DNA of 64,000 nt. Origin: Tricholomella constricta (Eukaryota > Basidiomycota > Agaricomycetes > Agaricales > Lyophyllaceae). A program made the translations under genes and the position numbers. The first letter of the stretch is position 1, and the number at the start of each line of letters is the position of its first letter. The stretch spans positions 186,001 through 250,000 of the forward strand of contig JAACJP010000042.1 in assembly GCA_013368375.1 (NCBI GenBank), given 5' to 3'. The notes below the pieces were generated by a model. It made no database searches and was not told where the DNA came from. It worked only from the letters and a program-made list of their open reading frames with translations. Of this stretch, positions 25,129-46,700 are shown piece by piece.

Positions 25129-26639
25129 GTCGAAATCACATTACAATTTCAACCGCGCGCTATACTGATCTTCTTCACAGTCTCTCCTTCGTGTCGCTCG
25201 TCGTTATAACTCGTCGTAATGTCCGTAACCTCCCGCGCTTCCCGTGTCGCTCTTCCTAAGGAGTTCGAATCCCTGCCGTGGATTTCGGACGCCTTCGAAG
25301 GCTGCGCCACCCTGGATTCTGTATTCCCTTCTGGGCACCTGCTCGAAGTAAGTGACTTCCGTTGAGTGTGGCGTTTATGTCGTTTCCTTCTTCCGTCTTT
25401 CTTTTCTGTCTCGTTTCCTTGTTTTATCATTGCTTTATTAACGTGTTTTGAAGGGCTACGCAGACCGCGTGTTGAAGAGCGAGGTCGATTCCAGGTCTGC
25501 TGCGGAAGTCGCTCTTACCCGCTATCTGAAGGGCGAGCTCCTCGATAAGCATTCCCTGGCAATGGTTTTTGCTCGCCTGATGGCTTATCGTGTGCTTGAC
25601 GTCGCTGTGCTGATGGATTCGACGCGTCATCGTCCGCGAGTTGGGAAGCCTGGCATGTGCATCCCCACGAATCGCCTTGTACGTATTCCCGTGTATTCCT
25701 CATCCGCTACGTCTCAACCACTCCATTTAGCCTTTGAAATTATTGGTCGATTGCAAGGCCTTTGTAGAAGAGCGCTGCAGCACCCTTCGTCGTGGCTTAC
25801 AGAGCTCAGAGGTCAACAATTCTGATGGTGTTTCTTCGTCTGGAACTCTTCGGCACTTGTACAACAGCATTTGGAAGAGGGATCGGCATGTGCAGCTGCA
25901 TACTGTGTTATTAAATATTGAGGTGGCTGCATTCCATCTCGGTTATTTGATGCAGGTATGTTGTTCTTTTTTTAGTTTTGTTCTTGCCTTGCTCTCGCCC
26001 CGCGTTCGCTAATTCCAATGTAGGGTCGTCTGGACCTGCCTTCTAACTTTTCAGATCTCAAATTCGGAGAGTGAGTACACTATTCTATTTTTTGCTCTTA
26101 TCAGCTACCGTTAACTTATGCTGTATTCTCAAAGGGATAGCGACAATCACTGGGTTATTCCCAGTAACTATAGCATGCAAAACCTGAGGCTTCCTTTGCA
26201 CGTTGCTCTGGCGGTGTCTCCTCTCTGTTTGTTATTTTCTAAAAACTTGATGGATGGACCTGGTCGTGAAAAGTTGTTCGATGTCAGGTATTTCCACGTG
26301 AAAGTTATGCAGACACTGATCCTCCCTTTACTTAGTTATGGAATTCGATCAGCTTCGCTCATCGACCATCTTCCATTGTGGCTGCTGAGAGAGCCCTTTG
26401 GTCGATGTTGTTTAATATTGCCCGAGGCGAATCTTCTGTTGCCTCTTTGCAGACGGCTCTCGATTTCCTGTCGGGTTTGGAAATCGAGACGGGTAAATGG
26501 CTTTCAGTTATGTCTACAGAAGATACTTCTCTGCCTGCTGTCGGTGCATCTGGTCTAAATGACGCAGATGCTTCCTTTCCTGTGCCAGTAGGTCCTGGCT
26601 CCAATGCGTTCGCCCCTACGCATTCCTCTGCACAGTCGT

Positions 26640-27150
26640 CTATGCATTCGCCTGCTCGTTCCCCTTCGCGTCCGCGTTCCCCTTCGCGTCCGCGTTCCCC
26701 TTCGCATCCGCGTTCGTCCTCGCCTGCGCGTTCCCCCTCGCGTCTGTGTTCTCCTTCGCGTCCGCGTTCCCCCTCGCGTCCGCCTCTCGCGACTGACGAT
26801 GACGACATGGGCGATGTCACAGTACAGGGGCCGCCGCGTCCGCGTTTCCCCTCGCGTCCGCCTCTCGCGACTGACGATGACAACATGGGCGATGTCACAG
26901 TACAGGGGCCGCCGCGTCCGCGTTCCCCCTCGCGTCCGCGTTCCCCCTCGCGTCCGCGTTCTCCATCGCGTCTGCGTTCTCTATCGCGTCCGCGTTCCCC
27001 CTCGCGTCCGCCTCTCGCGACTGACGATGACGACATGGGCGATGTCACAGTACAGGGGCCGCCGCGTCCGCGTTCCCCCTCGCGTCCGCCTCTTGCGTCT
27101 GACGACGTCGACATGGGCGATGTCACAGAACAGGGGCCGCCGCGTCCTCG
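26640..27150 (+). repeat. Coding minisatellite (Arg-Pro-Arg-Ser-Pro-Ser)
   Basis: Two nested repeats inside exon 6 of the JmjC-like gene: a 12-bp unit ccgcgttccccctcgcgtcc-like giving R-P-R-S-P-S, and four copies of a longer block encoding D-D-D-D-M-G-D-V-T-V-Q-G-P-P (near 26797, 26871, 27025, 27099). The antisense 289-aa frame over this region is a shadow. Confidence 0.9.
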
Positions 27151-27429
27151 TAGGTCCAGCCACATAACTTTCGTCGACACGAAAAAAAGCGGCCCAAAAT
27201 CTAGTGCGACGCCTTTGTTGCGTGTCAAGAGGAAGCGGCGCGCTCATCGCTCTCGTACAAACAACGTGTTGGATGACGACGAACCAGATGTGGAGTCGGA
27301 GGACGACGACGTCCCCATTCCTGCACCATCGCACATTTCAGATGACTTTTTGGCTGTTACAGAGCTCATTGACATTACGGCATTTGATGTACGTCACTCT
27401 ACATACAATTTCTGATCTATTTGCCATGC

Positions 27430-27650
27430 TGTAACGGGGTTACAGAATTTGGGGACCTTGTTGTTCACACTAGACGTAAGCTTGACAAGTCTGTCGATTG
27501 CTACGTATAGGTGTACAAGGTTGTTTATACTTAATTAATGTAATGAATTAAATAGGCAACACCAGAAGGTGTTGCCAAACAATAGCGTAATCGTCTCGAT
27601 AAGATATGATTAGATAACCAAGATTAGATAAGATAGTGGGCGTCCTTACA
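27430..27650 (-). repeat. 3' LTR of element 2
   Basis: 221 bp. Begins tgtaac and ends ttaca. Contains a 9-bp perfect stem (27555-27563/27568-27576). Confidence 0.95.
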
Positions 27651-28007
27651 TACCCCCCTTTAAGATCGCGTGTAGCGATCTTCACCAGGGAGTTGGGCAG
27701 GAAAAGGAGAGTAAAAGGAGGGTCTAGGTCCCGGCGACCTAGACCTATCAAATAATGCAAGAATACGTAGGTATAATACGTATTCTTGACTTAACGAGTA
27801 GTGGATGCATTAGCGCCACTGCACGGCCTCAAAGTGCCGTGCGGCAATGAATGGTGGTGAGGACATCCAATGTTGCGTTAATACGCAACCTGCGGATTGC
27901 TCCTCGGGAGTCAGGTGGTCTGCACCTGACAATGGCGGTCGGCCCGGCGGTACGCCCTACGTGTCGAGGTCGGTTCGTTGACGGGGGGATTAAGTTGTCT
28001 CCCCGAC
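27651..28007 (-). other. 3' untranslated part of element 2
   Basis: 357 bp between ORF4 and the 3' LTR. No gene. Holds the polypurine tract at 27651-27662 and at least six perfect stems of 7-12 bp, including 27758-27769/27777-27788. Confidence 0.8.
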
Positions 28008-30962
28008 CTATGACTCCATCACTGTGTCGGGGTCGGTGGTGTTGTTGTCCACCGGACCCTGGCTGGTGGTAATCACCGCCAGTGATAAAGGCCCTGTAAG
28101 GGCCGACACGGGGTCCACTTGGGTTTCGGTAGCTCCAGTTGGAGCTGCCACGACTGTGGAGGGTGTCGCGGGGGCAGGTATAGCTGCCGCCGGGTCCGCC
28201 ATTTCGACGTTGATGGACGTCGATCCCGATGAAGCTGGGTGATGCAGGCCTGGGGGGAGATATTCCCCCACCCGAACACGGAGTCCTCGGAAGTGTGGGT
28301 CTTCACCCACAAACATCCATTCTGAACTCACTAGACAGTCTAGTGATTCGGTCTGGAATTCCACGTGCATCAGTGTTTGGATGCGCGTGATGTCGTCGGT
28401 GGTGGGATGGTACCACCCATCCCACTCAGGGATGGCGGGCGGAACACCCATTTCATCTAGACGATGAACTCGATCGTCGTCAACATTGCGGAACAGGTCC
28501 TTATAGGGACCTGCGTTAGAGTAGTTATGGTCCAAATAATGTAGACCATAAGTGTAGCTATGGTGTATCCAGCTTACTGGAATACCAATGTTGATAAGGT
28601 GTTGCAAGACACCTTGTTCAGTGATCCGCACCTCCGGAGGGATCACTTGGATGCGAGGTATGGTAACCTCAGGGCCTTCGATCGGTGTGAAAGGCCGATC
28701 TGGATTGGCCTCGTTATAGGCAGCCACAGCCTCTGAGTAGAGGTATGGCCGCGCAGTAATGGTCGCGAAAAGTCGCATGAACCATGACCGCATGCTGTGG
28801 GTAGTTGGCGCTAGTACATTTGCCAACAAGTATCCCCAAGTTCCGCGCCTATGTACGCGGAACCGGTAGTCCATGACGATTCCTCCGTATTGGTTTTTTG
28901 AACCAATACGCCCATGGTGAATCATATGTCGGCACCAGTGCTCGACATCGAGGGCATGGTCGGGGCCTGGCTGAGGCAGGCCAGCGCCTCGTGTAGGCTT
29001 GTCCGGCCTATATTCGAATGCCCTCCCAGGCCGCCTAATTGGCGCGGCCTGCCAAATGGGTGACCGTGTATCGAACGGTCGGTTGACGCTTCTAAATTCA
29101 TCCATGGCTGCTCGAGCCATGGATCGGTCGCGCAAATGGGGCGCTACCGAGAGGGAGACTCGCCGGAACTCCCTAAAGAGCATAAAGGCCTCTGCCCGCT
29201 CTTCATCCGTCACGCCGGGGCGCCGATCGTTGATCAGTGCATACAACTGATCAACTTCACGAGGGTTCATTGGGAACCCGCGTGGTGCGACGGCATATAG
29301 CCGTCCCGATGGGGGACGAGAATTGTGTCCCGTCCCCAACTCGCTTTCGGACACTCGCGCTGCAGTGCCTAGTGCGTAGGCACGATTCTGGGCGGACGAT
29401 ACATATATCGTCCGCACTAGCATATCCCAAAAGCGGTTGTCCCTTTCGTGGCGATCGTTGATGAAGACCACCCCGAGCTCGTCAGGGATCCGCCCCGGCA
29501 TCTCCTTCTCAGCTTTGCGAGCCATATTCTCGCGATGCTGCTTTTGCCCGGCAGCCTTCTTCTTGCTGACAGGCTTGTCGTCGTCAGACGACTTGCCCCA
29601 GTCCGATTCATCCATAGCCTCGGCATATGGATCCGATGCCTTCTGTTTGCCTTTGGATGGCGGCGTTGGGGGCTGCACCATCGTACTAGGTGGTGCAGGG
29701 GCTGGCGCTGGCAAAGTATATTTGCCAACAGGTTCCTTCTTCTGAGAACCTCGTTCTGGGTTCCGCACCCGGCTTTCTCCCGGGGGCGGTAACGCTCCGG
29801 ATAGGTTTTGCGGCTTTGCTTCCGCTGACGTCGACGATGTCGACACTGTGCGCTCGATTTCTCGAGCAGGTAAGGGGCGCACTTCGCGCGTCCCTTGATC
29901 CTCTCGGCGCTCTTCCCGTTGAGAACCATAATCAAGTGGGCGTTCGTCACGCCACACTTCCTGGTCGGGGTGGCGGTTGTACCGCCGATTCTCCTGTTCC
30001 AGGCGTCGTTCCGGACGCCTGGGCTCGCTCCTCTCTTGTCGTCGCGGCTCGTATGAGGTGCGTTCTTCTCGACGCACCTCCATTTGCTGCCTTTTTATGG
30101 GTCGGGACGATGGTCCCTCCCCGCGATCCGGCGATGCTACTGCCGGCCGTTTTCTTGCCAGGCTGAGTTGCTCAGCCATGGCCGCTTCTCTCGCTTTCAC
30201 GCGTCTCAAATCCGCGCGAACTCCATCGTATGCATCAAGCAGCTGGGTTATAACCAGCTGCGCCATTCCATCGTCCAAGAAATCACAAAATTCGCGGTGA
30301 ATACCCGCGTCTTCCAATCGATCCAAGAGAGAAGAAAGGAGACCATCGTCTGCGAATGGTCTCCTCGAACTTGACGCAGGCGATACTCTGCGATCGTCTG
30401 CCATCCTCCGCGAACTCGACGCCGACGACGCTTTGTCGTCTGCATTCGGTGCGACATGTTGCCGCACCTGTTCGCCGCGCACCACTTGCGCCGGCGGAAC
30501 ATTTGCTTGCAGACGACTTTGGTCGTCTACCTCCATCTTCTCCGATTCGTTGTACCGCGTATTGTGCGGTACAGGCTGCATGGGCATTTGGGGGTACCAC
30601 GTCGGTTGCGGGTACCCCATGAAACCCGCCATTGATGGCATCTGTTGGAATGCCAGCCCTGGCGGGTAAAAACCACCCATAGGTGGTTGTTGCCCTTGGT
30701 GGTGCGGTTGGCTCATATGGCCAACCGTCGGAAATGTTTGTTGCCCCTGATGGGGCGGTTGGCTCATATGGCCAACCGGAGGATATTGGTATAATTGGGG
30801 CTGCGAGCCCATGTAAGTTGGGGGCAGGGGCGCATTTTCCGCGCGCCCCTGCACTCCCTCCCCACTTGAACTCGGCCCCGAGTTCAAATTTTGCTGGTCG
30901 GTGCGGCTGTCGCCGCCCCGAATCGCGTCGTTGCTGGAGGTTGGTACTTGGCTGGGGTACAT
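28008..30962 (-). CDS. ORF4 of element 2: 984-aa protein after pol (unknown)
   Basis: Intact frame in the sense orientation, starting 128 nt after the pol stop, at the place where env lies in retroviruses. Residues 1-150 are Pro/Gln/Gly-rich with a duplicated V-G-H-M-S-Q-P-x-H-Q-G-Q-Q unit. About 185-250 are acidic and helical, about 270-380 are very rich in Arg and Glu, and about 400-480 are Pro/Lys-rich. About 490-900 look like a folded domain with many aromatic residues (for example W-G-Y-L-L-A-N-V-L, W-Y-H-P-T-T-D-D-I). I see no signal peptide, membrane helix or furin-like site, so it is not an obvious envelope protein. I do not recognise the fold. It may be a nucleic-acid-binding or particle-associated factor; that is a guess. 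Confidence 0.85.
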   Translation of the reverse strand: MYPSQVPTSSNDAIRGGDSRTDQQNLNSGPSSSGEGVQGRAENAPLPPTYMGSQPQLYQYPPVGHMSQPPHQGQQTFPTVGHMSQPHHQGQQPPMGGFYPPGLAFQQMPSMAGFMGYPQPTWYPQMPMQPVPHNTRYNESEKMEVDDQSRLQANVPPAQVVRGEQVRQHVAPNADDKASSASSSRRMADDRRVSPASSSRRPFADDGLLSSLLDRLEDAGIHREFCDFLDDGMAQLVITQLLDAYDGVRADLRRVKAREAAMAEQLSLARKRPAVASPDRGEGPSSRPIKRQQMEVRREERTSYEPRRQERSEPRRPERRLEQENRRYNRHPDQEVWRDERPLDYGSQREERREDQGTREVRPLPAREIERTVSTSSTSAEAKPQNLSGALPPPGESRVRNPERGSQKKEPVGKYTLPAPAPAPPSTMVQPPTPPSKGKQKASDPYAEAMDESDWGKSSDDDKPVSKKKAAGQKQHRENMARKAEKEMPGRIPDELGVVFINDRHERDNRFWDMLVRTIYVSSAQNRAYALGTAARVSESELGTGHNSRPPSGRLYAVAPRGFPMNPREVDQLYALINDRRPGVTDEERAEAFMLFREFRRVSLSVAPHLRDRSMARAAMDEFRSVNRPFDTRSPIWQAAPIRRPGRAFEYRPDKPTRGAGLPQPGPDHALDVEHWCRHMIHHGRIGSKNQYGGIVMDYRFRVHRRGTWGYLLANVLAPTTHSMRSWFMRLFATITARPYLYSEAVAAYNEANPDRPFTPIEGPEVTIPRIQVIPPEVRITEQGVLQHLINIGIPVSWIHHSYTYGLHYLDHNYSNAGPYKDLFRNVDDDRVHRLDEMGVPPAIPEWDGWYHPTTDDITRIQTLMHVEFQTESLDCLVSSEWMFVGEDPHFRGLRVRVGEYLPPGLHHPASSGSTSINVEMADPAAAIPAPATPSTVVAAPTGATETQVDPVSALTGPLSLAVITTSQGPVDNNTTDPDTVMES

Positions 30963-31090
30963 GTTGGTTTGTGTTGAGAGGGTTGAAAATCGGTTGCGCG
31001 TCTAGCGCCAAACATATTTAACCTTCTGTCATAACTTTTGATGGTTATGTAATTTTCCTGATCGCCGTGGTCACGTGACCGCGCCACATT

Positions 31091-34000
31091 CTAGGTTCGT
31101 CGCGGTAATCTCGACGCGCTCTTCACCCCTTGTAGTTCCAAGTAGCGATCCAGTGCCGCTAACTTGTTACAATTGGTGTGCGGTTCCCAGGTGGTGTCTC
31201 CCAGGCTCCACCTAACCTGATATTCCACAGTATTATTTTGGGTCCATCTATGGCCCAAAATGTCTTCTACAAACCATTCGTGATTATCCGGCGCCCCAAA
31301 ATCGTAGGGCTCCGGATGAGTTCTATTAGGGAACATTGTATCATTCGTTGCGTAGTATGGGCGCAACATCGATATATGAAATGTTGGATGTATCCGGCGC
31401 TCCATGAGTGCCGTAGGTAATTCCAACGTATAGTTCGACGTGTCTGGCATGGCCTTCAGCACTTTGTAGGGCCCGACGAATTTCGGGCACAATTTACGGG
31501 TGCGTCCCTTGGGGAGGTTCAAGTTCTTGGTGGATAAATACACCAAGTCTCCCCCCTTTATTTCTGGACCAGCGGATCGGCACCTGTTTGCCTCGCGCGT
31601 TTGAAATACACGCGCTTCGATTATAGCGTCATGCGCCTCCGCTATATTCTGCAATGCGCGTTCCGCATACTCTCGAATTCCCTTCGGTATTACGCTGTCT
31701 GAGCGTATCTCTTTCAACATGGACGGCATGTATCCACTATTCAGCTCAAATGGAGCGAACTTGGTAGTAGCCGATACGCTCGCATTTATCGCGAACTCAG
31801 CCATGGGTATACAATCTACCCAATCCTTTTGGTCATGCCTCACAACGGCACGAAATATCTGGCCAATACTACGATTGGCTCGCTCCGTTTGTCCATCCGT
31901 CTGAGGATGGAAAGATGTCGACATTAGGAGCTTAGCTCCTAATAACTTATCTAGTTCGCGCCACCAGCGTGACGTAAACTTAGAGTCTCGATCACTTACG
32001 ATCGAGCTTGGCAGGCCATGGAGCCTGACGATCTCCCGTAAGTATACCCATGATAATTGGGCTGCTGTCATCGTCGTATGTATGGGTATCATATGCACCA
32101 TACTCGTCATACGACAAATTACTACCCATAGGTAATTATATCCCTTTGATTCTGGAAATGGACCGATAAAGTCCATTCCGATAGAATCCCAAGGCTTAGT
32201 TGGTACTGGCAGGGAGTGTAGTTTCCCTGACGGTTTTTGATTCGACGTCTTGATCTGCTGGCAGTACTCGCACGTTTTACAAAATGTACGCACGGTCGTG
32301 GCTAGTGATGGCCACCAATACCATCGTCGAATATATTCAGTAGTCCGTTCGGCACCGAAATGGCCCATAGTTTTATGGGCTTGCTCAATAATTGTGGTGA
32401 TGAGCTCGGGTTCTCGCGGTATACATAGAACACTATCATTTATAGCGTTCGTGGTCCAAATGAGATTGTCTTTCGTGGTGAACGTACGAAAGTCCATGGG
32501 GTTAGCGAGAATAACTGAAAATAGTTTATCCTTTGGGTATCCAAGGATAACGTCGTGACGGATCTTTTCATCCGTTTTGTCTGGGGGAGGAGAAACTGTG
32601 TCCCTCCCGAGGACAATATCTCCGACCGTACGTTCCCGTTCGGTTGGACTCATGCTTTTCTGAGGGTTTGACGATGTTCCGGATGCGGTACTTGGTGCCG
32701 CAGCCTCCATTATCTGAGCCTTGACATCTCGATCCTCCTGGCGTTCTTGAAGACGCTTGCTTCGACGTATTTCTACGTCTTTCATCGCTCGAATCTCAAC
32801 TACTTTTTCCACAATTTCATGGTATCGTGGTACTGGTAGATCTTCACCAGTAGGATTGATTCTAGCATCAGCAGCTACGAAATCGTGGACGTCGTAACGA
32901 TCTTGATGGTTATCGCTCTCGAAGTATCGCGATAGACAGTCGGCGACTTTGTTCAGTTCGCCTTTCACATAGGTTATGTCGAAGTTAAATCGCGACATGT
33001 ATTCCATCCATCGACGCTGCCTAGGTGATAAATTCACCTGGGTCTTAAAGAATTCGAGGGCTTTATGGTCGGTAATGATGTGGATTTTATAGCCCACAAG
33101 TTTATCCTCCCACTTAAGTAACGCTTCGAGAATAGCTAAGGTCTCGAGTTCATGCACAGCATAATTCTGCTGTGCATTAGTGAATTTTTTGGACATGAAT
33201 CCAGCCGGCTGGGCTTGGATCCATGTAGGTCCTTGTCCATACATCGCACCGACGCCTGACTTGGAGGCGTCACAGATAATCCAAATTGGTTCGCCTGTCT
33301 TCGGTTGAATCGGCCGAACAATTGGCGTTGTGCAGCATATATGCTTTATCATTTCAAAGCATCGCTGATGAATTGGTCTCCAATAAAATGGCGACCCATT
33401 CTCGGTCATCGCCATTAGTGGACCAGTGTATGCAGATATATCTGGGAGAAACTGTCCCAGATAGTTAACAAGTCCAACGAATCGTTGGATATTGTTGTAA
33501 TTCCGTGGTATCCTCCAGTCACGGATCCGTGCCAGTTTGTCGGCGTCAGGGTGAATTCCTTGGTCGTCGATAATATGACCAAGGCAATCAACGCGATCCG
33601 AATACAATTCGCATTTCTTCCATTTAAGGTAGAGTGATTGTTCGCGTAATCGTTCGAACACAACTCGCAAGTGGTCTTCATGTTCCTCAATAGAGTTCGG
33701 GAATATGAATATATCGTCCAAGTATACATGCATGAACTTCCCAATGACGTCCCGAAAGATGGACATCATTAATCGTTGAAATGTCGCGGGAGCATTACAG
33801 TCCCCGATTTGCATGATGTTACTGATGTATGTTCCCGCTATCGTTGCGAAGGCGGTTTTATGTACATCTTTTTCAAGGATGCGTTCTTGTTCATACGCAT
33901 CCGTTAAGTCAATTTTGGACCGTATTTTTCCCCTGACGACATCTTCGCGAATAACTTCCTGGTCTGGCAAGGGCGTAACGTCCTTGATCGTGTTATCGTT

Positions 34001-34990
34001 ACGCTGGCGTGCGTCCAAGGGTGTTCTCAGGGAGCCGTCTTTTTTCGGGATACATAGCAGCGGCGCTGCTTGCTTCACCGAACGAGGCTCCCACCATTTA
34101 GAATCCGTATACCGATTGACCTTCGCGTAGAATTCCTCGCGAAGGGACATTGGGCACCTCGGCGCGTGGTACTGGTACTGTTTCTCATCATCGACGAGAA
34201 TAATCTCGTGATTGACTTCCCGCCAGGGTGGTAGCTGTTGTTTCGTACCACCCACCATATCTTCGAATTCGTCATGCCATTGCTGGCGAAGTCGTGGATA
34301 ATCTTCCGCGGTAAGGCCTCCATTGGGTGCCTTACCTTTTCCGTTCACCGTTCTTGCAGCGCGAATGTGCGCTGTGTCTTTATTGCTAGGTTTAACATCA
34401 AACCTAGCTCGTAGTTTTACGAGAGCAAAGTCACTCTCATCCTTCACTGGTAACCGATACAACGGCCGTTTAGCCCGTTGTATATTCACCGGAAAATTCA
34501 TTTCCGTTGGCTCCGATACTTCCTCAGGCCATGGATTTCGGTACGCTTGTCCTCGCGTGCCTACATTTCTTCCTTCGTGAGCCCGCATTGACGCTATTAC
34601 TGCGTTCCATTCTTGCGGCATCCGTGGGTCGAACATCCACTCATATTGTGGATGTGGATTTGGTCTATCCCAAAATGATCGATTACTCGTATTCGTATAC
34701 GGCTCTGATTCCGTATCCTTGTCGGCCCCGCTCGTCTTATGCGCTTCATTATCGCGCTGATGTTCTTCGCATGGCTCGTCAACCTGTGCTCGTTCGTTCG
34801 AAGGCTCGTTTTTTGCCTTCTGCTGTCGTCGTTGGGGTTTTCTCTTCTTCGGAGGTGGCTTATCCCCCTCCTTAAGAGTTTCTTGAAACTCTTCCTCGGA
34901 TAATAAAAGTGCTGGATGATCCTTCGGTAGGCTGTTTATCGGCCTACCCTCATTATCAGGATCATCGTCATCTTCTACTGTTACTTTTAG
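31091..34990 (-). CDS. Pol of element 2 (RT-RH-IN-chromodomain), read through from gag
   Basis: The frame continues from gag directly after its UGA. The first 118 codons are acidic then Lys/Arg-rich, and the first ATG is only at 34636. Then comes reverse transcriptase (P-K-K-D-G-S-L-R, Y-L-D-D-I-F-I near 33720) and RNase H (I-C-D-A-S-K-S-G, I-T-D-H-K-A-L-E-F-F). Integrase has its H-H-C-C finger (H-F-G-A-E-R...C-x2-C) and D-D-E residues (M-D-F-I-G-P, S-D-R-D-S-K-F, T-D-G-Q-T-E). A C-terminal chromodomain-like module ends the protein (F-V-E-D-I-L-G-H, V-R-W, T-T-W-E-P). All motifs are intact, so the enzyme is probably functional. Confidence 0.92.
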   Translation of the reverse strand, partial: LKVTVEDDDDPDNEGRPINSLPKDHPALLLSEEEFQETLKEGDKPPPKKRKPQRRQQKAKNEPSNERAQVDEPCEEHQRDNEAHKTSGADKDTESEPYTNTSNRSFWDRPNPHPQYEWMFDPRMPQEWNAVIASMRAHEGRNVGTRGQAYRNPWPEEVSEPTEMNFPVNIQRAKRPLYRLPVKDESDFALVKLRARFDVKPSNKDTAHIRAARTVNGKGKAPNGGLTAEDYPRLRQQWHDEFEDMVGGTKQQLPPWREVNHEIILVDDEKQYQYHAPRCPMSLREEFYAKVNRYTDSKWWEPRSVKQAAPLLCIPKKDGSLRTPLDARQRNDNTIKDVTPLPDQEVIREDVVRGKIRSKIDLTDAYEQERILEKDVHKTAFATIAGTYISNIMQIGDCNAPATFQRLMMSIFRDVIGKFMHVYLDDIFIFPNSIEEHEDHLRVVFERLREQSLYLKWKKCELYSDRVDCLGHIIDDQGIHPDADKLARIRDWRIPRNYNNIQRFVGLVNYLGQFLPDISAYTGPLMAMTENGSPFYWRPIHQRCFEMIKHICCTTPIVRPIQPKTGEPIWIICDASKSGVGAMYGQGPTWIQAQPAGFMSKKFTNAQQNYAVHELETLAILEALLKWEDKLVGYKIHIITDHKALEFFKTQVNLSPRQRRWMEYMSRFNFDITYVKGELNKVADCLSRYFESDNHQDRYDVHDFVAADARINPTGEDLPVPRYHEIVEKVVEIRAMKDVEIRRSKRLQERQEDRDVKAQIMEAAAPSTASGTSSNPQKSMSPTERERTVGDIVLGRDTVSPPPDKTDEKIRHDVILGYPKDKLFSVILANPMDFRTFTTKDNLIWTTNAINDSVLCIPREPELITTIIEQAHKTMGHFGAERTTEYIRRWYWWPSLATTVRTFCKTCEYCQQIKTSNQKPSGKLHSLPVPTKPWDSIGMDFIGPFPESKGYNYLWVVICRMTSMVHMIPIHTTMTAAQLSWVYLREIVRLHGLPSSIVSDRDSKFTSRWWRELDKLLGAKLLMSTSFHPQTDGQTERANRSIGQIFRAVVRHDQKDWVDCIPMAEFAINASVSATTKFAPFELNSGYMPSMLKEIRSDSVIPKGIREYAERALQNIAEAHDAIIEARVFQTREANRCRSAGPEIKGGDLVYLSTKNLNLPKGRTRKLCPKFVGPYKVLKAMPDTSNYTLELPTALMERRIHPTFHISMLRPYYATNDTMFPNRTHPEPYDFGAPDNHEWFVEDILGHRWTQNNTVEYQVRWSLGDTTWEPHTNCNKLAALDRYLELQGVKSASRLPRRT

Positions 34991-34993
34991 TCA
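34985..34993 (-). promoter_or_regulatory. Candidate UGA-CUA stop-readthrough site between gag and pol
   Basis: Gag ends TGA (34991-34993) and the next codons are CTA AAA GTA in the same frame, open for 1299 codons. UGA followed by CUA is a known leaky-stop context in RNA viruses and cellular readthrough genes. The arrangement is gammaretrovirus-like rather than the frameshift used by elements 1 and 4. Inference. Confidence 0.6.
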
Positions 34994-36841
34994 TTCTCTT
35001 CGTTTCTCCAATGACCGATGGCGTCTAGCTCGGCCATCGGTATCCTCCATTTTTACCTTAGTCGCTGGTATAGCGACTCCATTGACGACAACTTCGTCAC
35101 GGTTAAAGTCCAGCACGACGTTATTTGCGCGCATAAACGGTGTGCCTATAATCACGTCGTATCGATCAAAGTTAGCAAGGTCCATGTAGACCTTGCCTTT
35201 AAACCCTAGCAGAGCGGCTTCCACCGTCGTACCAAAGTTTACTGTGGCCCGACTTCCTTTAGTCCCGAGCTGGAGGATTAATGGATCCTCCAGCGGAAAT
35301 ACTCGAATATCGGCCACTTGAGCGAATGACGGCGTAAGTCCGGTAGTTGTACTCCCGGAATCCCAAAGGGTCCAAGCCTCATGTCCACCTACGTTAATGT
35401 AGGTGACAAGGCACTCCTTGTCCTTTATCGGAACTACGGGACGAGCAATTTTGTCCCTCCCCGTCCGCACTTTAACTTTGCGAACTGGTGGTTTATCATT
35501 GCGTTCTTCTGACGCAATTACTTCTGTCATTGCAAACATACGCTCGGTCTCATCGTCCCGAGCATAGTATTCATTTTCGTAGACCTCCATGTCTACGAAC
35601 TCATCGCCTTCGTCTTCATTGTCCGCCTCTGTATCAGGGCATCCATTGTCTCGTCCGTCCGGGTCCTCGGGAGACGTGTCTTCATCGTCCGCCTCACTTG
35701 CCGCGTCAGGTGCCGCTGTACGTGCGGCCCTTAGGAACGCTCGCTGTTTCTTGGGCTGTTTGCAATCTTTTGCAAAATGCCCTAGTTTTCCACAATTAAA
35801 GCACACTTCCCCCGGAGGGTGGTTGTGATGATCGTGGTTTTTAGGTTGATCGAAACGCGGACGATCTCCTGTCTTTATTGCTGGTTTTTCGACGTGGGGC
35901 TTCTGCTCTCCACGTCCAGATTGATCCTGATACGCTGGCTTGACATATGGCTTTTCATTTACTGCGCCATACACCCGTCGAGGCCTGTTGAAATTGTTGT
36001 GTGGAGCGTTTACTCGCCCCCCATCTGGTTTCCGCATTTGGCTCGGTTGACTTCGCTGAGCGGTTATGGTCCGCTCAAAGTAATCAGCTGTTTTCTGGGT
36101 GGCTTGAAGTGCTAGGCCCACCGCTAGGAACTCTTGGGCTGTATTGATTTGGGGTGATAGCCCGTCATCGAATAATGCCTTCCGCATATCGCGCGGAAGT
36201 GTTTTGAGAAATTTCTCCAGGAACGTCCAATCATCCGTTCTTGCTGCCATGTTCATGGCATGATCCACAAGGTCGTCATACAGACCTTGTATGCCTTTGC
36301 TCGCCGAATAGGTAACGGCGTTAAAGTCGTTACGAGCATCCTGCATGGTTGAAGGCAGCACGAACCGATCGTACAGCCCTAGTATGACGTCTTCAAACGT
36401 CCAGGACTGCTTTTCGCGGTTCACATGGATAACATGGCGATTGTACCATTTCCGAGCTTCACCATCAAGGAACTCAGATGTTATCAGAACGCGCTCTTGG
36501 TCGCGTTCTGCTCCTCCAAACTGGCTCACGGCTAGCATCACGACAAGGCTGGCTAGCCATTCTTCCAATTCGCCAAACTTGGCGCTTCCACTATAAGTGC
36601 CTACGGACTTTGAGTCCGCACGGCGAGATTTCATACCATCAGGGAGCGATAGGCGTACAGCCAGTCGCTCGTGTATCAGTTGATGCAACCGTTCGTGCAT
36701 CTTAGTTTTATGCTGCTCTCCAGCAGCATATATTCCGTCCGCAATTGATTGACTCCTGCGAATCGGGTCAGGCATTGAGTAGCCTCGACTTTGAAATCGA
36801 GGCTGAGCATGTGAAGTGGGTTCACTTATACGAACCCGCAT
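34991..36841 (-). CDS. Gag-protease of element 2 (616 aa)
   Basis: Residues about 75-260 form the retrotransposon gag core (G-E-A-R-K-W-Y, W-T-F-E-D-V-I-L-G-L-Y-D-R-F). A CCHC zinc knuckle (C-F-N-C-G-K-L-G-H-F-A-K-D-C) lies near residue 350. A long acidic linker follows, then a retropepsin-like domain (L-W-D-S-G-S-T-T near 505, D-V-I-I-G-T-P-F near 575). The start ATG (36839-36841) lies inside the end of ORF1. Confidence 0.93.
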   Translation of the reverse strand: MRVRISEPTSHAQPRFQSRGYSMPDPIRRSQSIADGIYAAGEQHKTKMHERLHQLIHERLAVRLSLPDGMKSRRADSKSVGTYSGSAKFGELEEWLASLVVMLAVSQFGGAERDQERVLITSEFLDGEARKWYNRHVIHVNREKQSWTFEDVILGLYDRFVLPSTMQDARNDFNAVTYSASKGIQGLYDDLVDHAMNMAARTDDWTFLEKFLKTLPRDMRKALFDDGLSPQINTAQEFLAVGLALQATQKTADYFERTITAQRSQPSQMRKPDGGRVNAPHNNFNRPRRVYGAVNEKPYVKPAYQDQSGRGEQKPHVEKPAIKTGDRPRFDQPKNHDHHNHPPGEVCFNCGKLGHFAKDCKQPKKQRAFLRAARTAAPDAASEADDEDTSPEDPDGRDNGCPDTEADNEDEGDEFVDMEVYENEYYARDDETERMFAMTEVIASEERNDKPPVRKVKVRTGRDKIARPVVPIKDKECLVTYINVGGHEAWTLWDSGSTTTGLTPSFAQVADIRVFPLEDPLILQLGTKGSRATVNFGTTVEAALLGFKGKVYMDLANFDRYDVIIGTPFMRANNVVLDFNRDEVVVNGVAIPATKVKMEDTDGRARRHRSLEKRRE

Positions 36842-38070
36842 GTCTTGACGGCCGTTAGCCGTCGCGTCGTATTATGTTTTCCGACGGCCCCATTTCCCAG
36901 TCCACCATCCGAACCTTGAGTTTGCGAGGCCCATTGCCTCGCCATCTCATCTACAGGCATATGTCCTTCGAAGACGACTCCTTGATCATCATAATTCGTG
37001 AACTTGCTCCGTGATAAATCAGCGTTTCTCAAACGCTGATATGCGACTCGGTTGTTCCAATCTTTCGCTAATGGAACACGGCCATCCTTCGCATCCATAG
37101 GTACTTGAATAGCTGGCGCGCTTTCGTCGCCAGCTGCTTGCGGGGTTGTATACTTACGTTCCGTGGGTGGGTCTAACGTAGACTCACTAACAGGGGCCCA
37201 TTTGGATCCCTGTGGTTGCGCAAGATGCTCTTCACGAGTCATTCTTTCGCGCTTTGCTGCCGCAGACCGACGACGATAATCGTCGTCAGATTCTCCTAAC
37301 TGTCGCGCTTGATGCAGCGCCGATACTGCCATGGCAGCCTCATCAAGAGGCTGGTTCGATTTGGCAGCCACTGCTTGAGGAGTGAAGAGGTCATCCCAAC
37401 GACCTTTTCCTTTGTTGAACGAGGCTTTCTTAGGTACAGGCGTCCCAGCGATCGAGCTGACTGCTGAATTCGAAGTTCCCTTAGGGTACTTCTTCCTGTA
37501 TTCCGTAACTACTACGGACAGCGCTTCCAAGTATCGGTCGGCATATGCTTGTGCGACCATTTCTCCAACGGATTGTGCTCCGGTAGATCGCAGAACGAGC
37601 CTATCCGCTCGTTCCTCCAGTCGCCTTCGCCGATGCTCGCTAACCACATCGGTGGTGTCCCAGAATTGCTTCACTTGAAGCGCAAGCAGTTCCCTTTCGC
37701 TGGCCTCTTCTTCATTAGCCTCGGGGTCGGACAAGTCGTCTTCGTCCGACTCCATCTTGATTATGCTCAGGGTGGACGCCCCGAACGCTCTATTTGACAG
37801 ACGGCTGTCTGGCCATCTGCTTCCCGCCGTGGAGCCAGGTCGATGTGACCTGGCCAATTCGTCGGCCAGGCTCCCAGGCACATTGGTGCTTGCTATTGGC
37901 CAAAGTTCCTCCGATTCTACTCCTAGTGTATTCTGCGCTGGTGGACTTTGTCCACCAGCGACTGATCCGACTTCCACTGGTTGCAGTGGAAGTTGTGATG
38001 GAGGATGCGCTGCGAGCGCATCCTCGAAGACCGGAGTTCGGCTCTTTCCGGATGTGGGAGTTGGTGTCAT
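36826..38070 (-). CDS. ORF1 of element 2: 414-aa protein before gag (unknown)
   Basis: First ORF after the 5' LTR, with its ATG 108 nt downstream of it. It overlaps the gag start by 16 nt in the -1 frame (gag ATG 36841, ORF1 TAA 36826-36828), so gag is probably made by reinitiation or leaky scanning. The protein is acidic around residues 105-135 (D-E-D-D-L-S-D-P-E-A-N-E-E-E-A). It has helical Arg-rich stretches (H-R-R-R-R-L-E-E-R) and no membrane segment or known domain that I can name. Confidence 0.8.
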   Translation of the reverse strand: MTPTPTSGKSRTPVFEDALAAHPPSQLPLQPVEVGSVAGGQSPPAQNTLGVESEELWPIASTNVPGSLADELARSHRPGSTAGSRWPDSRLSNRAFGASTLSIIKMESDEDDLSDPEANEEEASERELLALQVKQFWDTTDVVSEHRRRRLEERADRLVLRSTGAQSVGEMVAQAYADRYLEALSVVVTEYRKKYPKGTSNSAVSSIAGTPVPKKASFNKGKGRWDDLFTPQAVAAKSNQPLDEAAMAVSALHQARQLGESDDDYRRRSAAAKRERMTREEHLAQPQGSKWAPVSESTLDPPTERKYTTPQAAGDESAPAIQVPMDAKDGRVPLAKDWNNRVAYQRLRNADLSRSKFTNYDDQGVVFEGHMPVDEMARQWASQTQGSDGGLGNGAVGKHNTTRRLTAVKTCGFV

Positions 38071-38177
38071 CGGGTCTGGGTCTCGTGGGTTCTTTTGATG
38101 ATGGTTGTTCTAAATGGAATGTGGTTCTGCGTATGTAGTGGGTACGCAGCAATAGAAAGCAAGGTAGCTTAAAAAAA

Positions 38178-38398
38178 TGTAACGGGGTTACAGAATTTGG
38201 GGACCTTGTTGTTCACACTAGACGTAAGCTTGACAAGTCTGTCGATTGCTACGTATAGGTGTACAAGGTTGTTTATACTTAATTAATGTAATGAATTAAA
38301 TAGGCAACACCAGAAGGTGTTGCCAAACAATAGCGTAATCGTCTCGATAAGATACGATTAGATAACCAAGATTAGATAAGATAGTGGGCGTCCTTACA
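38178..38398 (-). repeat. 5' LTR of element 2
   Basis: 221 bp, one base different from the 3' LTR. A tataaa box lies on the minus strand about two thirds into the LTR. Confidence 0.95.
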
Positions 38399-40681
38399 CA
38401 TGCTGAAAAAAAAAATGCTGTTGACCTCCCAGGACATAGACTTTGATTCTGCACCACTTGGGCTGAAATCTTCTCCGGTTCGTAGCGTTCTCTTGCTTTC
38501 CCTGTTCGTTCGTCTCATTCGATGGTACTCAGAAGGTACAAGGCTCTCGCGAGTTTGAGTATCACTATGCAGGTGGCTCCGAGCCGTATAAATATATTCC
38601 CTCGTTTCACGTAAGCCATCGATTATTCCTTCTGGTTAGGTTTATCTTTATAATTATATTGTGTGTTCTCGTAGTCTCAGTCAGACGTCGATTGGTGGAA
38701 TAGGATGCACGACATCGTCGTTCCAGGCTACGTGAAGGACCTTCCACCTCATTTGGTAGCTGACGAAGGATCTTCCATATTCGCTATCGGAAACGCGGGG
38801 CTGGAGCTCCTCACTGATGCCGAAGTACTGGAAAAGTTGAGGCACAAGCATATCCTTGTCTACGATATGCCTTGTAGTCCATCTCGATTCGATTCTTCGG
38901 CTTTGAAGCGCTTGGGTGCGTTGCGAAGTCCTCGTACCTTCTATGGTGCGTCTTACCTTTGTTTATGATTTTATTTTTTCCGTTTTCTTTTTATTCTATT
39001 TCTTACTGACAAATACAACGCTCGAAGATTTATCTGCTCTTTGCAATCGCGATGTCGGAAACAGAGAATGAGCACGCGTTGGAACCTCTCTTGACATCCT
39101 TGAGTGTGTCAAGGCTGGCTACTCCCAGTCCATCAATGGATTGGATTACCCGCTGGCGCTCGATCCTTTCCCCGTACAGCCGTTCTCTACGGATATGGAA
39201 GCGTGGACATACACTCTTGATTTTGCCTTCTGTCGACGGACGGAGCAGGTGCCTGTGACGGAGATACGGTGGGGATTGGCTGCCACCGCTGGCGCATCCA
39301 ACAGGTTCCATATCGACTCGTCTGGATTTGGGACCTTTGTGCAGGTTGATGTCGGCGTGAAGCTTTGGCTCATTGCGACTCTCAAAACGCCGAAGCCATA
39401 CGAATCCATGGCCGACATTGATGTCTTTCTCGATCTGTTTGACATAGATCTTACCCACAGCACGAAGTGGCAGGTAGAGCTGCTGGTTCTCAAGCCTGGC
39501 ATGAAGCTGTAAGTTTTTATTATCTAATTCCGGTAAAAGAATCCGTGTTTGACCTATAAATTCATGCAGAATTATGAGGCCAAATACCTTGCATGCTGTC
39601 GTTTCGCCGGAGAACGTTATCTGCCGGGGAGGGCATTTCTACGCCTCCTCCACATTGCTCGACACTGTGTATGGCTGTTATCATACTTTCGTTGTAATGC
39701 ATCGTGTCACGAATTCGGAGCATGCTGCAGCTTCTGAGCAGCTGCTCACTCGCATCCTGTTCTTCTTCCACAGCCGTTTAACGGGATCCGGTCTCGAGCA
39801 CGAAGGTGAGTTAGTTTTCTGGTGACTGTTGACCTGATCCTTGGGCCTGAAGACTTCTTTTAGAAGATGATGCTTCTCATCTCCCGAATCTCGAAACGTT
39901 TGACGGCGTACTGCAGTTATTGACTCTCGCCAACTTTTTCGAGCTGTCAAACGCATTAGCTCCGTGGAAGTACGACACTTCCTGTCATCGTCATCCCCAC
40001 CGGGTGCGCGCAGTAGCAAATCGTCGGATAGCACGTCAACTGGTAGAATGGCTAATGTGTAACTTCATCTTTCACGACGAAGGTGACGCAGTTATCAGCT
40101 CTAAAGTTATGATGAAGGAGCTGTACTGCCGTCATTTGGCTAACCAGGCAAAGGCGCTTTTGGACTACAAGACCGCCGCAGCTGCTGCCAATGTAAACGG
40201 ACTGCTTCCGAGTTGCACCCCGGATCGCCTTCGGAGAGCGTTGGATCTGACCTTCCAAGAAGGTTATGCTGAGCTTGCGTGGAAGGCGGTGTCGAATGTC
40301 AAGGTCGCATCGTTCGCATGGTCGGGTCCTTCATACAAGGTGGAAAGGCGAGCTGAACGGGTCTCCAGTACGTTGTTGTATGATCATGTGATTTTCCTTG
40401 CTTATCTGTATTTCTTTTTAAACATTGCAGTTAATGAGAAGATACACGGATTATTGGTGGAAGACACGGCGTATTTTCGTCGTATCCATTCGCAGGTCGC
40501 ATCCGCTAGCTCTTCGTCGCGCGGCGATACAATCTCTGCTGTTCGCGCTTCGAAACAACGTGCAGACCTTGGTTCTTCCGCAGCTGGTGCGGTTGGCTCT
40601 GATGAAGAACCTAGTGGTAGTGACAGTGACACTGTTCAAAGTTATCGTTCGACCATCTCGCTCATGAATTTCTACAGGTGA

Positions 40682-43766: not shown

Positions 43767-46700
43767 TTAGGGTTCTGTGATATTTATCCGAGATTTGAGA
43801 CCCTGTGGCATGTGTGTGTGATTTTCATATGGGCGGAACAATTTAAGGAAGTCCTCGTGTGATGTAGCTTGAATTCTTCGAGGGGCAGATGGATTTAGAC
43901 GATGGAATTCATTTACAGCATCCTTGGCATTTTCGACATTTCTAGCTGGTTCCCAGGTGTTGTGTTCAGCGGTATAGCCTTTCCACTTCACTAGGTATTG
44001 GAATTGGTTTCTGAAGAGTCGAGAATCAAGGATCTGCTCGACTTCATATTCTAGCTGTCCTTCAATCTCTACTGGGGGTGGTGGTTCAGATGTTTGTCCG
44101 GGAATTTCCGGTTCTGAATAAGGGCGAATTCGTGAGACATTGATGACAGGATGAATTTTCAGGGTTGCTGGCAATTTTAGCCTGACTGCGTTCTCCGAAA
44201 TGATTTCGATGATCTCGTAGGGTCCAATTCTCTTTTCGGTCAACTTGCGCGATGGACGCGTGAGTTGCAAGTTGTCCGTTTCAAGCCAGACCTTTTGTCC
44301 CACTGAATATTCCGGTACATCTCCTCTTCGCTGATCTGCATATCTTTTCATTTCCTCTCTGGCTTTACATAATGCCGCCTGGGCTTCCTTGTGTATTTTC
44401 TTCATTCGGCTAGCGAATTCATTTGCTGCCTCATTCCTGCTTTGTCTTCTTGGTTCAAATCCCATCCGGGGATGAAGTCCGTAGGTAGCATAGAATGGCG
44501 ACACCTGTGTTGCCGAGTGAATAGCATTATTATGTGCGAACTCGGCTAATGCCAGCCATTCAGGCCAATCATTTTGCCGGTAGTTCACAAATAGTCGTAG
44601 ATACTGTTCAATCTCCTGATTTGTTCGTTCTGTTTGCCCATCTGTTTGCGGATGAAAGGCGGTGGTTAATTTAGTTTGTATTCCCAATAGTTTATTTAGT
44701 TCTTTCATCATTTCTGATGCGAACTGGGGTCCTCGGTCTGCTATGATGTTGTCTGGCATGCCGTGTAGCTTCCAGACATGGTCCCGATATAGTTTAGCCA
44801 GCCCTGTAGTAGATGTTTCCGATGTACAAGGGATGACATGAATTCCCTTTTTTGCTCGATCAACCACTACAAGGATTGCATCGTACCCCTGCGCATGCGG
44901 TAATCCCGTGATGAAGTCTGCTGCTACTGCCTTCCAGGGTTCCATTGGTGTGGTGATTGGCATTAATTTACCGGCTGGTGGTGCGGGAAACTGTTTGAAA
45001 CGTTGGCATTTGTCACATCCATCCACATAGGCGAAAATGAACTTGGTCATTCCTGGCCACCAGTAATTTCTAGAAACCAGTTCCAGAGTTCTGAAACGAC
45101 CCGGGTGTCCTGCCACTGGTGTATCATGATGGAGTTTGACAATTTCTCGTCGTAGTTGGACATCCTTTGGTACATAGACCTTGCCTCTAAATAAAATGAG
45201 TCCTTGTTCTTCGGTCCATTCTTCTGATCTCAATCGCTTTGTTGGTGATCGTTTCATCTCTTCCACTGCTTTCACTACTGATTCGTCCAGCTCCTTTGAC
45301 TTCCGAACACGTGTCAACAAGTCTTCTTCTGCTCCATCGATTAACACATGGCCTTGTTGCAGTGCTTTGATCGCAAAGAATTCGGGTTTCAGCAGTGTCA
45401 CCTCCATGTTGTCACTTTCCACTCCCTCTCTATGATCTGGCCTCCTGGACAGGGCATCTGCTTTCCCCATAGAGCTGTGCAATAATTCAAAATCAAATCT
45501 GGATAGATATAGTGCCCATCGAGCCTGTCGTCGGTTAAGTCTCTTTGATGTCATGAAGTATTGAAGGTTTCTGTGATCTGACCAGATCTCAACCTTATGT
45601 AATGCTCCTTCGAGATGATGTCGCCAAGTTTCCAGCGCTCAAATGATGCCCAGCGTTTCTTTGTCATGCACGTCATAATTACGCTCCACGTCACTGAGTG
45701 ATTTTGAGTAAAAAGCACATGGCCTCCATTTATCATCATCACATTTCATAGATAAGATTGCTCCTGTTGCAAAGTCCGAAGCGTCTGATTCCACTCGCAG
45801 CGGTTTATCGGGTTCTGCCGTTACCAAGATCGGTTTCGACGTGAAACGTGCTTTGAGTTCCTCAAAAGCTCCTTGTTGTTGTTCTGTCCATTCCCACTTC
45901 TGTTCTTTCCGTAATAGATTATTTAGGGGAGTTGCAATTTTGGAAAACCCTTCAATAAATCGACGATAGAAGTTGGCAAACCCCAAGAATTTCCTAACAT
46001 CTTTTACAGACTTCGGAATGGGCCATGAGGTTATTGCGTCGGTTTTGGTGGTGTCCATCTTTACTTCTCCTCCTCCCAGAATCAACCCAAGAAATTCTAC
46101 CGAAGTAGTGCTGAAGAAGCACTTCTCTGGTTTTAAGAATAAGTCGTTTGTCAACAGGATCTCCAACACTTCTTCCGTAATTTGCTCGTTCTCCTCTTTT
46201 GTGTCCGTAAAGATAAGTATATCGTCTATGTAAACTACTACGTGTCCTTTGTCAATCAAATCTTTAAGTAAACTATTCATCATAGTTTGGAAGGTAGCAG
46301 GCGAGTTGCAAAGTCCAAAATACATAACGAGTGGTTCGAAGGCCCCCCTGTGTGTGGTAAAGGCTGCCTTCCATTCGTCTCCTTCTTTAATACGTACGTT
46401 ATTATAGCCCCATCGTAAGTCCATTTCAGTAAAGTATTTCGATTTTCCAGCTTTGTCAATAAGGTCAGATATCATAGGTAATGGATAGTTATTTCGAATT
46501 GTTCCTGTATTTAGATACCGGTAGTCCTGTACCATTCGTTTCTTTCCGTCCTTCTTCGGTACAAAGAACACTGCACTGGTTTGTGGAGACTTGCTTTCAC
46601 GTATATATCCTTTTTCCAGTTGATCATTTAGGAAGTCGTCAACCTCCTTCTGTTCTACTGGTGAAAGTGGAATGTTTCGGGCCTTCTTTGGTATGAAGTC

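Follow-up and report, generated by a model that had tools for sequence, protein, structure and literature searches.

Organisation of the element

The second element of the 64-kb window (the whole stretch of DNA analysed), here called element 2, is a Ty3/gypsy LTR retrotransposon of about 11 kb (Table 1). It shares with other Ty3/gypsy elements the LTRs, a 5-bp target duplication, a polypurine tract, a CCHC knuckle in gag (Pfam zf-CCHC, E 1.3e-7, passing the cut-off), the pol order reverse transcriptase, RNase H, integrase (Pfam RVT_1 196-356, RT_RNaseH 449-550, Integrase_H2C2 743-797, rve 814-911), SH3_Tf2-1 and a weak C-terminal chromodomain match (Chromo 1123-1166, E 0.00095, 19.5 bits against a cut-off of 25.1). 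The protease match in gag is also weak and lies below its cut-off (RVP_2, E 0.0014, 18.9 bits against 20.3), and the best PDB match of pol is Ty3 Gag-Pol (E 6.6e-116). The element probably belongs to the chromovirus branch (Tf1/sushi-like).

It differs from Ty3/gypsy elements in carrying about 100 short perfect hairpins over its full length and in having a large extra ORF 3' of pol (ORF984). No primer-binding site was recognised after the 5' LTR, where the longest complementarity to the LTR, as for self-priming, is 6 nt. ORF984 is without a match in Pfam (E up to 0.001) or in the PDB (E up to 10), and its AlphaFold model has a mean pLDDT of 29.8. Judging from its sequence, it contains a basic, low-complexity stretch that may bind nucleic acid. 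An Rfam search gave no matches, and no relatives were confirmed in viral contigs.

Table 1. Parts of element 2 and individual hairpins, with positions in the window (W, A, O_C6 and O_C2 are compared sequences).
Feature	Position	Strand	Remarks
Whole element 2	27430..38398	-	101 hairpins (at least 7 bp, loop 1-12), mean spacing 108 nt, 21% of bases within hairpins
Target-site duplication, left, CATGC	27425..27429	.	CATGC flanks the element on either side
Target-site duplication, right, CATGC	38399..38403	.	as for the left copy
3' LTR, 221 nt	27430..27650	-	100% identity with 5' LTR; holds 9-bp hairpin 27555-27563/27568-27576
5' LTR, 221 nt	38178..38398	-	9-bp hairpin 38303-38311/38316-38324, found in 4/4 sequences compared
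Polypurine tract adjoining 3' LTR, sense AAAGGGGGGTA	27651..27661	-	read from the sequence
ORF414	36826..38070	-	5' of gag, overlapping it in a different frame in this copy; 13 stems of at least 7 bp
gag	34991..36841	-	CCHC zinc knuckle, weak protease match; 17 stems
pol	31091..34636	-	reverse transcriptase, RNase H, integrase zinc finger and core, SH3_Tf2-1, weak chromodomain; 24 stems
ORF984, large extra ORF 3' of pol	28008..30962	-	34 stems, the densest ORF
Longest hairpin, 12 bp, loop 7	27758..27788	.
Hairpin, 10 bp, loop 5	27721..27745	.	sister lineage A: one internal pair altered on both arms, 11 bp there
Hairpin, 11 bp, loop 3	37936..37960	.	outer pair C-G (W, A), A-T (O_C6, O_C2), compensatory; inner pair broken in both O copies
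Hairpin, 11 bp, loop 3	38001..38025	.	outgroup copy O_C6: outer G-C to A-T
Hairpin, 10 bp, loop 4	37970..37993	.	stem of at least 7 bp retained in 4/4 sequences
Hairpin, 10 bp, loop 3	37018..37040	.	stem retained in W, O_C6, O_C2; broken in A
Hairpin, 10 bp, loop 6	35269..35294	.
Hairpin, 10 bp, loop 6, within pol	33152..33177	.
Hairpin, 10 bp, loop 9	30824..30852	.
Hairpin, 10 bp, loop 9	30337..30365	.
Hairpin, 10 bp, loop 4	29392..29415	.
Hairpin, 10 bp, loop 7	29229..29255	.
Hairpin, 10 bp, loop 5	29100..29124	.
Hairpin, 10 bp, loop 5	28886..28910	.

An excess of short perfect hairpins

The initial annotation described element 2 as saturated with short perfect inverted repeats, and this texture is real. 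With loops of 3-15 nt we counted 94, 53, 26 and 14 stems of at least 7, 8, 9 and 10 bp, against 5.1, 1.25, 0.25 and 0.1 expected from 20 first-order Markov simulations. All 24 arm pairs listed in that annotation are perfect, some being longer than noted (9 bp at 28328, 10 bp at 31923, 11 bp at 38001), and its estimate of about 0.1 chance stems of 10 bp or more was right, with 14 observed where it had listed at least nine. A recount with loops of 3-12 nt, using a slightly different rule for loops of 3-4 nt, gave 98, 57, 28 and 14 stems against 5.5, 1.35, 0.32 and 0.13; all 60 exact dinucleotide shuffles fell short of every one of these totals. When loops of 1-12 nt are allowed, the median spacing is 83 nt, and hairpins are found in all four ORFs and in the LTR. 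The stems of 10 bp or more comprise eleven of 10 bp, two of 11 bp and one of 12 bp.

The excess persists when the encoded proteins are held constant, as the annotation had asked of its codon-shuffle check: for stems of at least 7 bp with loops of 1-12 nt, 30 synonymous-codon shuffles per ORF gave 2.4 stems for ORF984 (34 observed), 2.3 for pol (24), 1.6 for gag (17) and 0.8 for ORF414 (13), so that the four ORFs together hold 88 stems against 7.2. Overall the excess is about 18-fold over dinucleotide simulations and about 12-fold over synonymous shuffles.

Elements 1 and 3 had been described as different from element 2, and nothing comparable is seen there. Set against 200 shuffles for each region, the ORFs of element 1 have 5 stems of at least 7 bp (3.45 expected; 3 of at least 8 bp against 0.84), the visible part of element 3 has 4 (2.1 expected; 2 of at least 8 bp against 0.49), a fourth gypsy element at 43.8-49.0 kb has 1 (2.5 expected) and a Helitron has 3 (3.2 expected); a mild excess occurs at 18.1-27.4 kb (11 against 4.6) and at 55.6-60.7 kb (6 against 2.6). 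Together, the simulations, the codon shuffles and these other elements rule out chance, composition or codon usage as the cause, an explanation to which we attach negligible probability.

Loops, spacing and predicted folding

Loop lengths of 1-12 nt are enriched in element 2, mostly 4-9 nt, and those of 0 nt and of at least 13 nt occur about as often as by chance. Across loops of 1-2 nt, the innermost pair likewise stays close to the chance level, which is what one would expect if it is hairpins with loops of at least 3 nt that have to form. The loops are A/T-rich with C as the commonest 5' closing base, and among their trinucleotides AGA and A/T-rich ones are the most over-represented; no motif common to the loops was seen. 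Nor was regular spacing found, the distribution looking random (CV 0.73 against 0.80 for the null).

In 54 windows of 200 nt, the predicted fold of the sense RNA is much more stable than that of dinucleotide shuffles (mean z -3.59, 87% of windows below -2), in line with the RNA-structure selection that the annotation offered as one possible cause. The antisense strand reaches a mean z of -3.2, the sense strand being slightly better (p 0.035), and the corresponding values are about -0.75 for element 1 and about -0.55 for host sequence. In a 300-nt context the mean pair probability exceeds 0.5 for 90 of the 101 hairpins on the plus strand and for 89 on the minus (sense) strand.

Hairpins in the copies of the family

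The Helitron and Spt5-like neighbours of the element point to a mushroom-type fungus as the probable host. The family counts tens of copies in the 44-Mb genome, falling into three lineages with 77-92% DNA identity, all of which carry the hairpin texture in the pieces examined. Three outgroup copies have 34, 31 and 33 stems in 4.0-4.3 kb, the last two copies being 99.8% identical, and the outgroup counterpart of ORF984 has 12 stems in 1.5 kb; the 5' piece of B_C57, poorly aligned at 62% identity, has 14 stems in 4.1 kb. Among the 53 hairpins of the 5' part, 14 are present in all four sequences compared and 11 more in three.

Stems differ less between copies than their surroundings do, and loops roughly keep pace with the background or exceed it. 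The difference rates for stem, loop and other positions are 0.067, 0.203 and 0.207 between W and O_C6, 0.074, 0.176 and 0.199 between W and O_C2, and 0.150, 0.274 and 0.195 between W and O in ORF984, although such pairwise stem rates are biased low and overstate constraint because the stems were picked as perfect in one sequence. These loop rates bear on the idea that the hairpins are dispersed packaging signals, which Gag or the ORF984 product would recognise by a motif in the loop, an arrangement put forward for some single-stranded RNA viruses. As in those viruses, many small hairpins are scattered along the genome, here over four ORFs and the LTR and with loops mostly of 4-9 nt, and the basic stretch seen in ORF984 might bind nucleic acid. 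The loops of element 2, however, show neither conservation nor the common motif that such recognition implies, and the spacing looks random; we therefore regard this explanation as very unlikely.

Our main basis is a polarised test that is free of the stem-choice bias, in which 757 differences between one B copy and one A copy were polarised with the outgroup (an earlier version had 415 changes); its p-values assume independent changes. Stem-breaking changes numbered 73 against 127.9 expected (0.57 of the null, p 1.6e-8), stem-making changes 37 against 22.0 (1.7 times the null, p 0.002), and stem-to-stem changes inside retained stems 12 against 1.1 (p 1e-9). The deficit of stem-breaking changes is uneven: 13 against 44 in the 5' part, 48 against 72 in ORF984, and 12 against 11.9 in a 1.5-kb pol piece. 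The stem-making excess comes mainly from one 1.5-kb piece of ORF984 (18 against 5.8; 19 against 16.2 when that piece is left out), as do 9 of the 12 stem-to-stem changes. This concentration of stem-making and stem-keeping gains limits the support that they lend to selection on pairing.

Mutations private to single copies behave differently. Among 504 of these, 68 were stem-breaking and 17 stem-making where the null fractions predict about 66 and 16, which is the neutral rate. Excluded from this count as poorly aligned, interrupted or recombinant were B_C57 in both pieces and, for the 5' piece, also B_C2, A_C11 and A_C11b. The last two copies supply 200 of the 271 singletons that group A shows in the 3' piece. 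Private mutations are probably mostly post-insertion and say little on reverse-transcriptase errors.

Had the arms changed together, as the annotation proposed to check, matched changes should be visible, and some compensatory pairs do occur (Table 1), but double changes are few. Double Watson-Crick changes from W to A affect 8 of 534 and 1 of 290 pairs; in the 3' piece, 13 double changes compare with 8.5 for slid-partner controls, which is not much above, and 8 of the 13 are Watson-Crick. In the polarised data, ancestral pairs changed 68 times on the A and B branches, and in 4 cases the outcome was again a Watson-Crick pair. Within copy groups no stem pair was found in two Watson-Crick states; this search, which also excluded the 3' piece of A_C11 and A_C11b, had low power at about 1% divergence. 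Replacement of one hairpin by another at the same place between lineages did not exceed chance (2 against 2.8).

These counts also bear on a mutational origin, in which template switching by reverse transcriptase (or host repair) inside hairpins perfects imperfect palindromes and the stems are a functionless by-product. Quasipalindrome or template-switch mutagenesis would indeed yield perfect short inverted repeats, and the stems of element 2 are strikingly perfect: perfect stems of at least 8 bp are enriched 38-fold, those with one internal G-U or A-C 12-fold and those with other mismatches or bulges 5-fold. The absence of a clear strand preference (see below) and the new stems among polarised changes, concentrated as they are in one piece, would also fit. 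Frequent conversion, however, predicts many matched two-arm changes, which are scarce in the counts above; unbiased conversion would presumably not lower the loss rate, whereas losses fall well below the null; and elements 1 and 3 and the fourth gypsy element of the window lack the texture. Conversion as the main cause, the second of the causes offered in the annotation, is thus unsupported and in our judgement unlikely, though palindrome conversion may contribute slowly to new stems.

Proposed selection on pairing and the strand on which it may act

The comparison of sister copies suggests that the substitution pattern is best explained by selection on pairing. We hold, with moderate confidence, that the element 2 lineage has been under selection along its whole length to fold, when single-stranded, into numerous small local hairpins (stems of 7-12 bp, loops of 3-12 nt). 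The annotation's other proposal, selection for structure over the whole element, is supported, though unevenly: fold energies and the shortage of stem-breaking differences speak for it, but this shortage is marked in the 5' part, smaller in ORF984 and nil in the 1.5-kb pol piece. Packaging, stability and dsRNA evasion, the three pressures that the annotation named, are alike candidates.

Selection on sense RNA should tolerate G-U over A-C. When the outgroup branches are included, polarised stem losses comprise 36 G-U and 27 A-C (p 0.31; single-copy baseline 24:25), in which no clear G-U preference is found. The first, unpolarised G-U tests gave near equality, resembling strand symmetry, and enrichment is no higher for hairpins carrying a single internal G-U than for those carrying A-C. 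Selection might bear on single-stranded cDNA or on both strands instead of the sense RNA, either because cDNA hairpins matter or because sense and antisense transcripts fold to avoid annealing into Dicer substrates. Nearly equal folding of the two strands, the dominance of Watson-Crick pairs and the rarity of stems longer than 10 bp are consistent with this, but the A and B branches alone lean to G-U (28 against 15 A-C, p 0.07) and the slightly better sense fold leans to sense RNA, and we consider the reading possible but rather doubtful. We are similarly tentative about its broader form, whole-genome selection for Watson-Crick mini-hairpins in single-stranded DNA or both strands, independent of sequence and of sense-RNA rules, which might for example prevent the sense transcript, its antisense counterpart and the cDNA from pairing with one another in the cell.

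If there is selection on pairing, it would act on genomic RNA and/or single-stranded cDNA in the replication cycle. Each hairpin would contribute little and be replaceable by another, density outweighing any single site, as in codon bias. The likeliest role, we propose, is that the long transcript and the cDNA would be held folded as small self-contained hairpins that re-form behind the ribosome or reverse transcriptase; the molecule would thereby be made compact for assembly into particles and would pair less with other strands.

Relation to known systems and implications

Genome-scale ordered RNA structure (GORS) is known from some positive-strand RNA viruses, and whole-genome ordered structure has been discussed mainly for RNA viruses. 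Like those genomes, element 2 folds better than shuffles along its full length, coding and non-coding, but its signal consists of short local Watson-Crick hairpins of 7-12 bp with mismatched forms less enriched and no G-U preference detected, and its carrier is a retrotransposon, in which selected hairpin density of this kind would be unusual.

A DNA-integrated family with tens of copies provides a natural mutation-accumulation control. Since private variants are neutral to stems and differences between replicating lineages are not, selection on structure can be separated from mutation within one genome. The purpose of whole-genome structure thereby becomes testable, and the finding raises the question of why neighbouring gypsy families manage without the hairpin texture.

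Hairpin excess in element 2

The Ty3/gypsy LTR retrotransposon that we call element 2 (10,969 nt) carries 94 perfect stems of at least 7 bp with loops of 3-15 nt, against a mean of 5.1 in 20 first-order Markov simulations; for stems of at least 10 bp, the same type of simulation gave 0.1 expected and we found 14. With the same loops, stems of 7, 8, 9, 10, 11 and 12 bp numbered 41, 27, 12, 11, 2 and 1, respectively. Loop lengths of 1 to 12 nt were enriched, those of 13 nt or more being at chance. Exact dinucleotide shuffles (loops of 3-12 nt) averaged 5.5 stems, and none of 60 reached the 98 of the element. The 24 stems listed in the initial annotation were all perfect at their coordinates. Protein-preserving codon shuffles, a check that it had suggested, averaged far fewer stems than were observed in each of the four ORFs: 2.4 in ORF984 (34 observed), 2.3 in pol (24), 1.6 in gag (17) and 0.8 in ORF414 (13).

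A systematic scan of the window, per kb, showed that the block of high stem density begins and ends with element 2. As the initial annotation had noted, no comparable texture was found in element 1 (5 stems vs 3.5 expected) or in the visible part of element 3 (4 vs 2.1), and it was absent from a fourth gypsy-type element (43.8-49.0 kb; 1 vs 2.5) and from the Helitron (50.0-55.6 kb; 3 vs 3.2). Mild excesses of stems of at least 7 bp occur at 18.1-27.4 kb (11 vs 4.6) and 55.6-60.7 kb (6 vs 2.6).

Features of the window with their positions
Feature	Position	Strand	Description
Direct repeat	26607-27140		228 nt; two adjoining copies 92% alike and a weaker overlapping third; just beyond left end of element 2
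Element 2	27430-38398	-	Ty3/gypsy LTR retrotransposon
ORF984	28008-30962	-	Extra 984-aa ORF, 3' of pol
Stretch after 5' LTR	38139-38177	-	Starts with seven T; complementarity to LTR at most 6 nt
Fourth gypsy element	43767-48970	-	Ty3/gypsy with chromodomain; gag, RT, integrase
Helitron	50033-55556	+	DUF6570, Helitron_like_N and PIF1 helicase domains
Spt5-like protein	57878-58816	+	NGN and KOW domains

Element 2, whose sense is the minus strand, has identical LTRs of 221 nt and a polypurine tract and is flanked by the 5-bp target duplication CATGC; no primer-binding site was recognised after the 5' LTR. Its gag contains a zinc knuckle, its pol contains reverse transcriptase, RNase H, integrase and SH3_Tf2-1 domains with a weak chromodomain match, and its best solved relative among PDB matches is Ty3. 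ORF414 and gag lie in two different frames in the window copy, and 42 of 73 gag matches in the genome have a reported open frame of at least 950 aa, room for both together. ORF984, where hairpins are densest, has a basic, proline-rich N-terminal half. Nothing in Pfam matched it at E 0.001 (a single hit, at E 9.6, is meaningless) and nothing in PDB, and structure prediction gave no usable model. The ORF is present in both main lineages of copies, A and B (84% aa identity), being more divergent between them than gag and pol.

Age of the hairpins

The genome (44.1 Mb, 118 contigs) yielded 39 matches to pol, 46 to ORF984, 73 to gag and 105 to ORF414, counts that are lower bounds for repeats, yet include some broken copies as several pieces. 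We compared 20 further copies, two pieces each, with an outgroup of three 5' parts and three pieces of pol and ORF984, all within one genome and with about 4-8 kb per outgroup copy. In the 3' piece, the identity of lineage A to the window copy is 87.6-88.7%; in the 5' piece it is about 92% (eight of ten copies 0.915-0.919, one 0.921, one 0.867); the outgroup shows about 82% identity in the 5' part, 87-88% in pol and 77-81% in the ORF984 counterpart. A copy on contig C57 (34063-45505), whose 5' piece aligned poorly, combines a pol of B type (98%) with an ORF984 of A type (84%), suggesting that the lineages recombined.

The hairpin texture is old. The 5' piece contains 36 stems in the window copy, 36 in a lineage A copy and 34, 31 and 33 in outgroup copies O_C6, O_C2 and O_C24, the latter two being 99.8% identical to each other. 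For lineage B, lineage A and the outgroup, 1.5 kb of pol holds 12, 12 and 8 stems, and 2.9 kb of ORF984 holds 32, 30 and 22. All four sequences compared share 14 of the 53 hairpins of the 5' part, and a further 11 occur in three of them. Compensatory changes are seen, e.g. C-G to A-T in the outer pair of 37936-37960.

Selection or mutation

Single-copy variants (n=504), probably mostly post-insertion mutations, included 68 that break and 17 that make stems, where random placement, computed from null fractions, gives about 66 and 16; among about 141 variants common to several copies, 11 were breaking and 9.5 making. We then polarised 757 differences between one B and one A copy, both with few private mutations, using O_C2. 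Of these, 73 were stem-breaking vs 127.9 expected (p 1.6e-8) and 37 stem-making vs 22.0 (p 0.002), the p-values treating changes as independent; another 12 fell within stems that were retained, vs 1.1. The breaking deficit was uneven (5' part 13 vs 44, ORF984 48 vs 72, 1.5-kb pol piece 12 vs 11.9), and one ORF984 piece held most of the making excess (18 vs 5.8; 19 vs 16.2 elsewhere) and nine of the 12 stem-to-stem changes. In pairwise comparison, arms evolved more slowly while loops were near or above the background rate, which indicates that what is constrained is pairing, not the regional sequence.

The initial annotation had offered repeated template-switch conversion, perfecting imperfect palindromes, as a possible cause. 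Frequent conversion predicts many matched double changes, but few were found: none within groups (where power is low), 8 of 534 and 1 of 290 pairs from the window copy to lineage A and, among 68 polarised changes of ancestral pairs, 4. The data thus do not fit frequent conversion; the substitution pattern fits purifying together with weak positive selection acting on the replicating lineage.

Folded state and possible benefit

Both strands fold strongly (z -3.59 for the sense and -3.17 for the antisense strand), and 89-90 of 101 hairpins were predicted to form on either strand. Selection on sense RNA is expected to spare G-U. The G-U to A-C ratio of polarised changes, 28:15 for branches A and B alone (p 0.07), became 36:27 with outgroup branches included (p 0.31), the single-copy baseline being 24:25. 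The enrichment of hairpins with one internal G-U did not exceed that of hairpins with A-C. Loops are A/T-rich, most commonly with C as the 5' closing base. Pairs that would leave loops shorter than 3 nt are near chance (5:10 and 4:17 in the window copy vs 1:3). Together, these loop features point to real folded hairpins, in RNA or single-stranded DNA.

The density, conservation and substitution pattern of the hairpins are observed, the acting molecule and the benefit inferred. We propose that the element gains from being split, while single-stranded, into many small, fast re-forming hairpins. The gain may be compaction or packaging or, alternatively, that strands would be kept from annealing to each other and entering RNA silencing.
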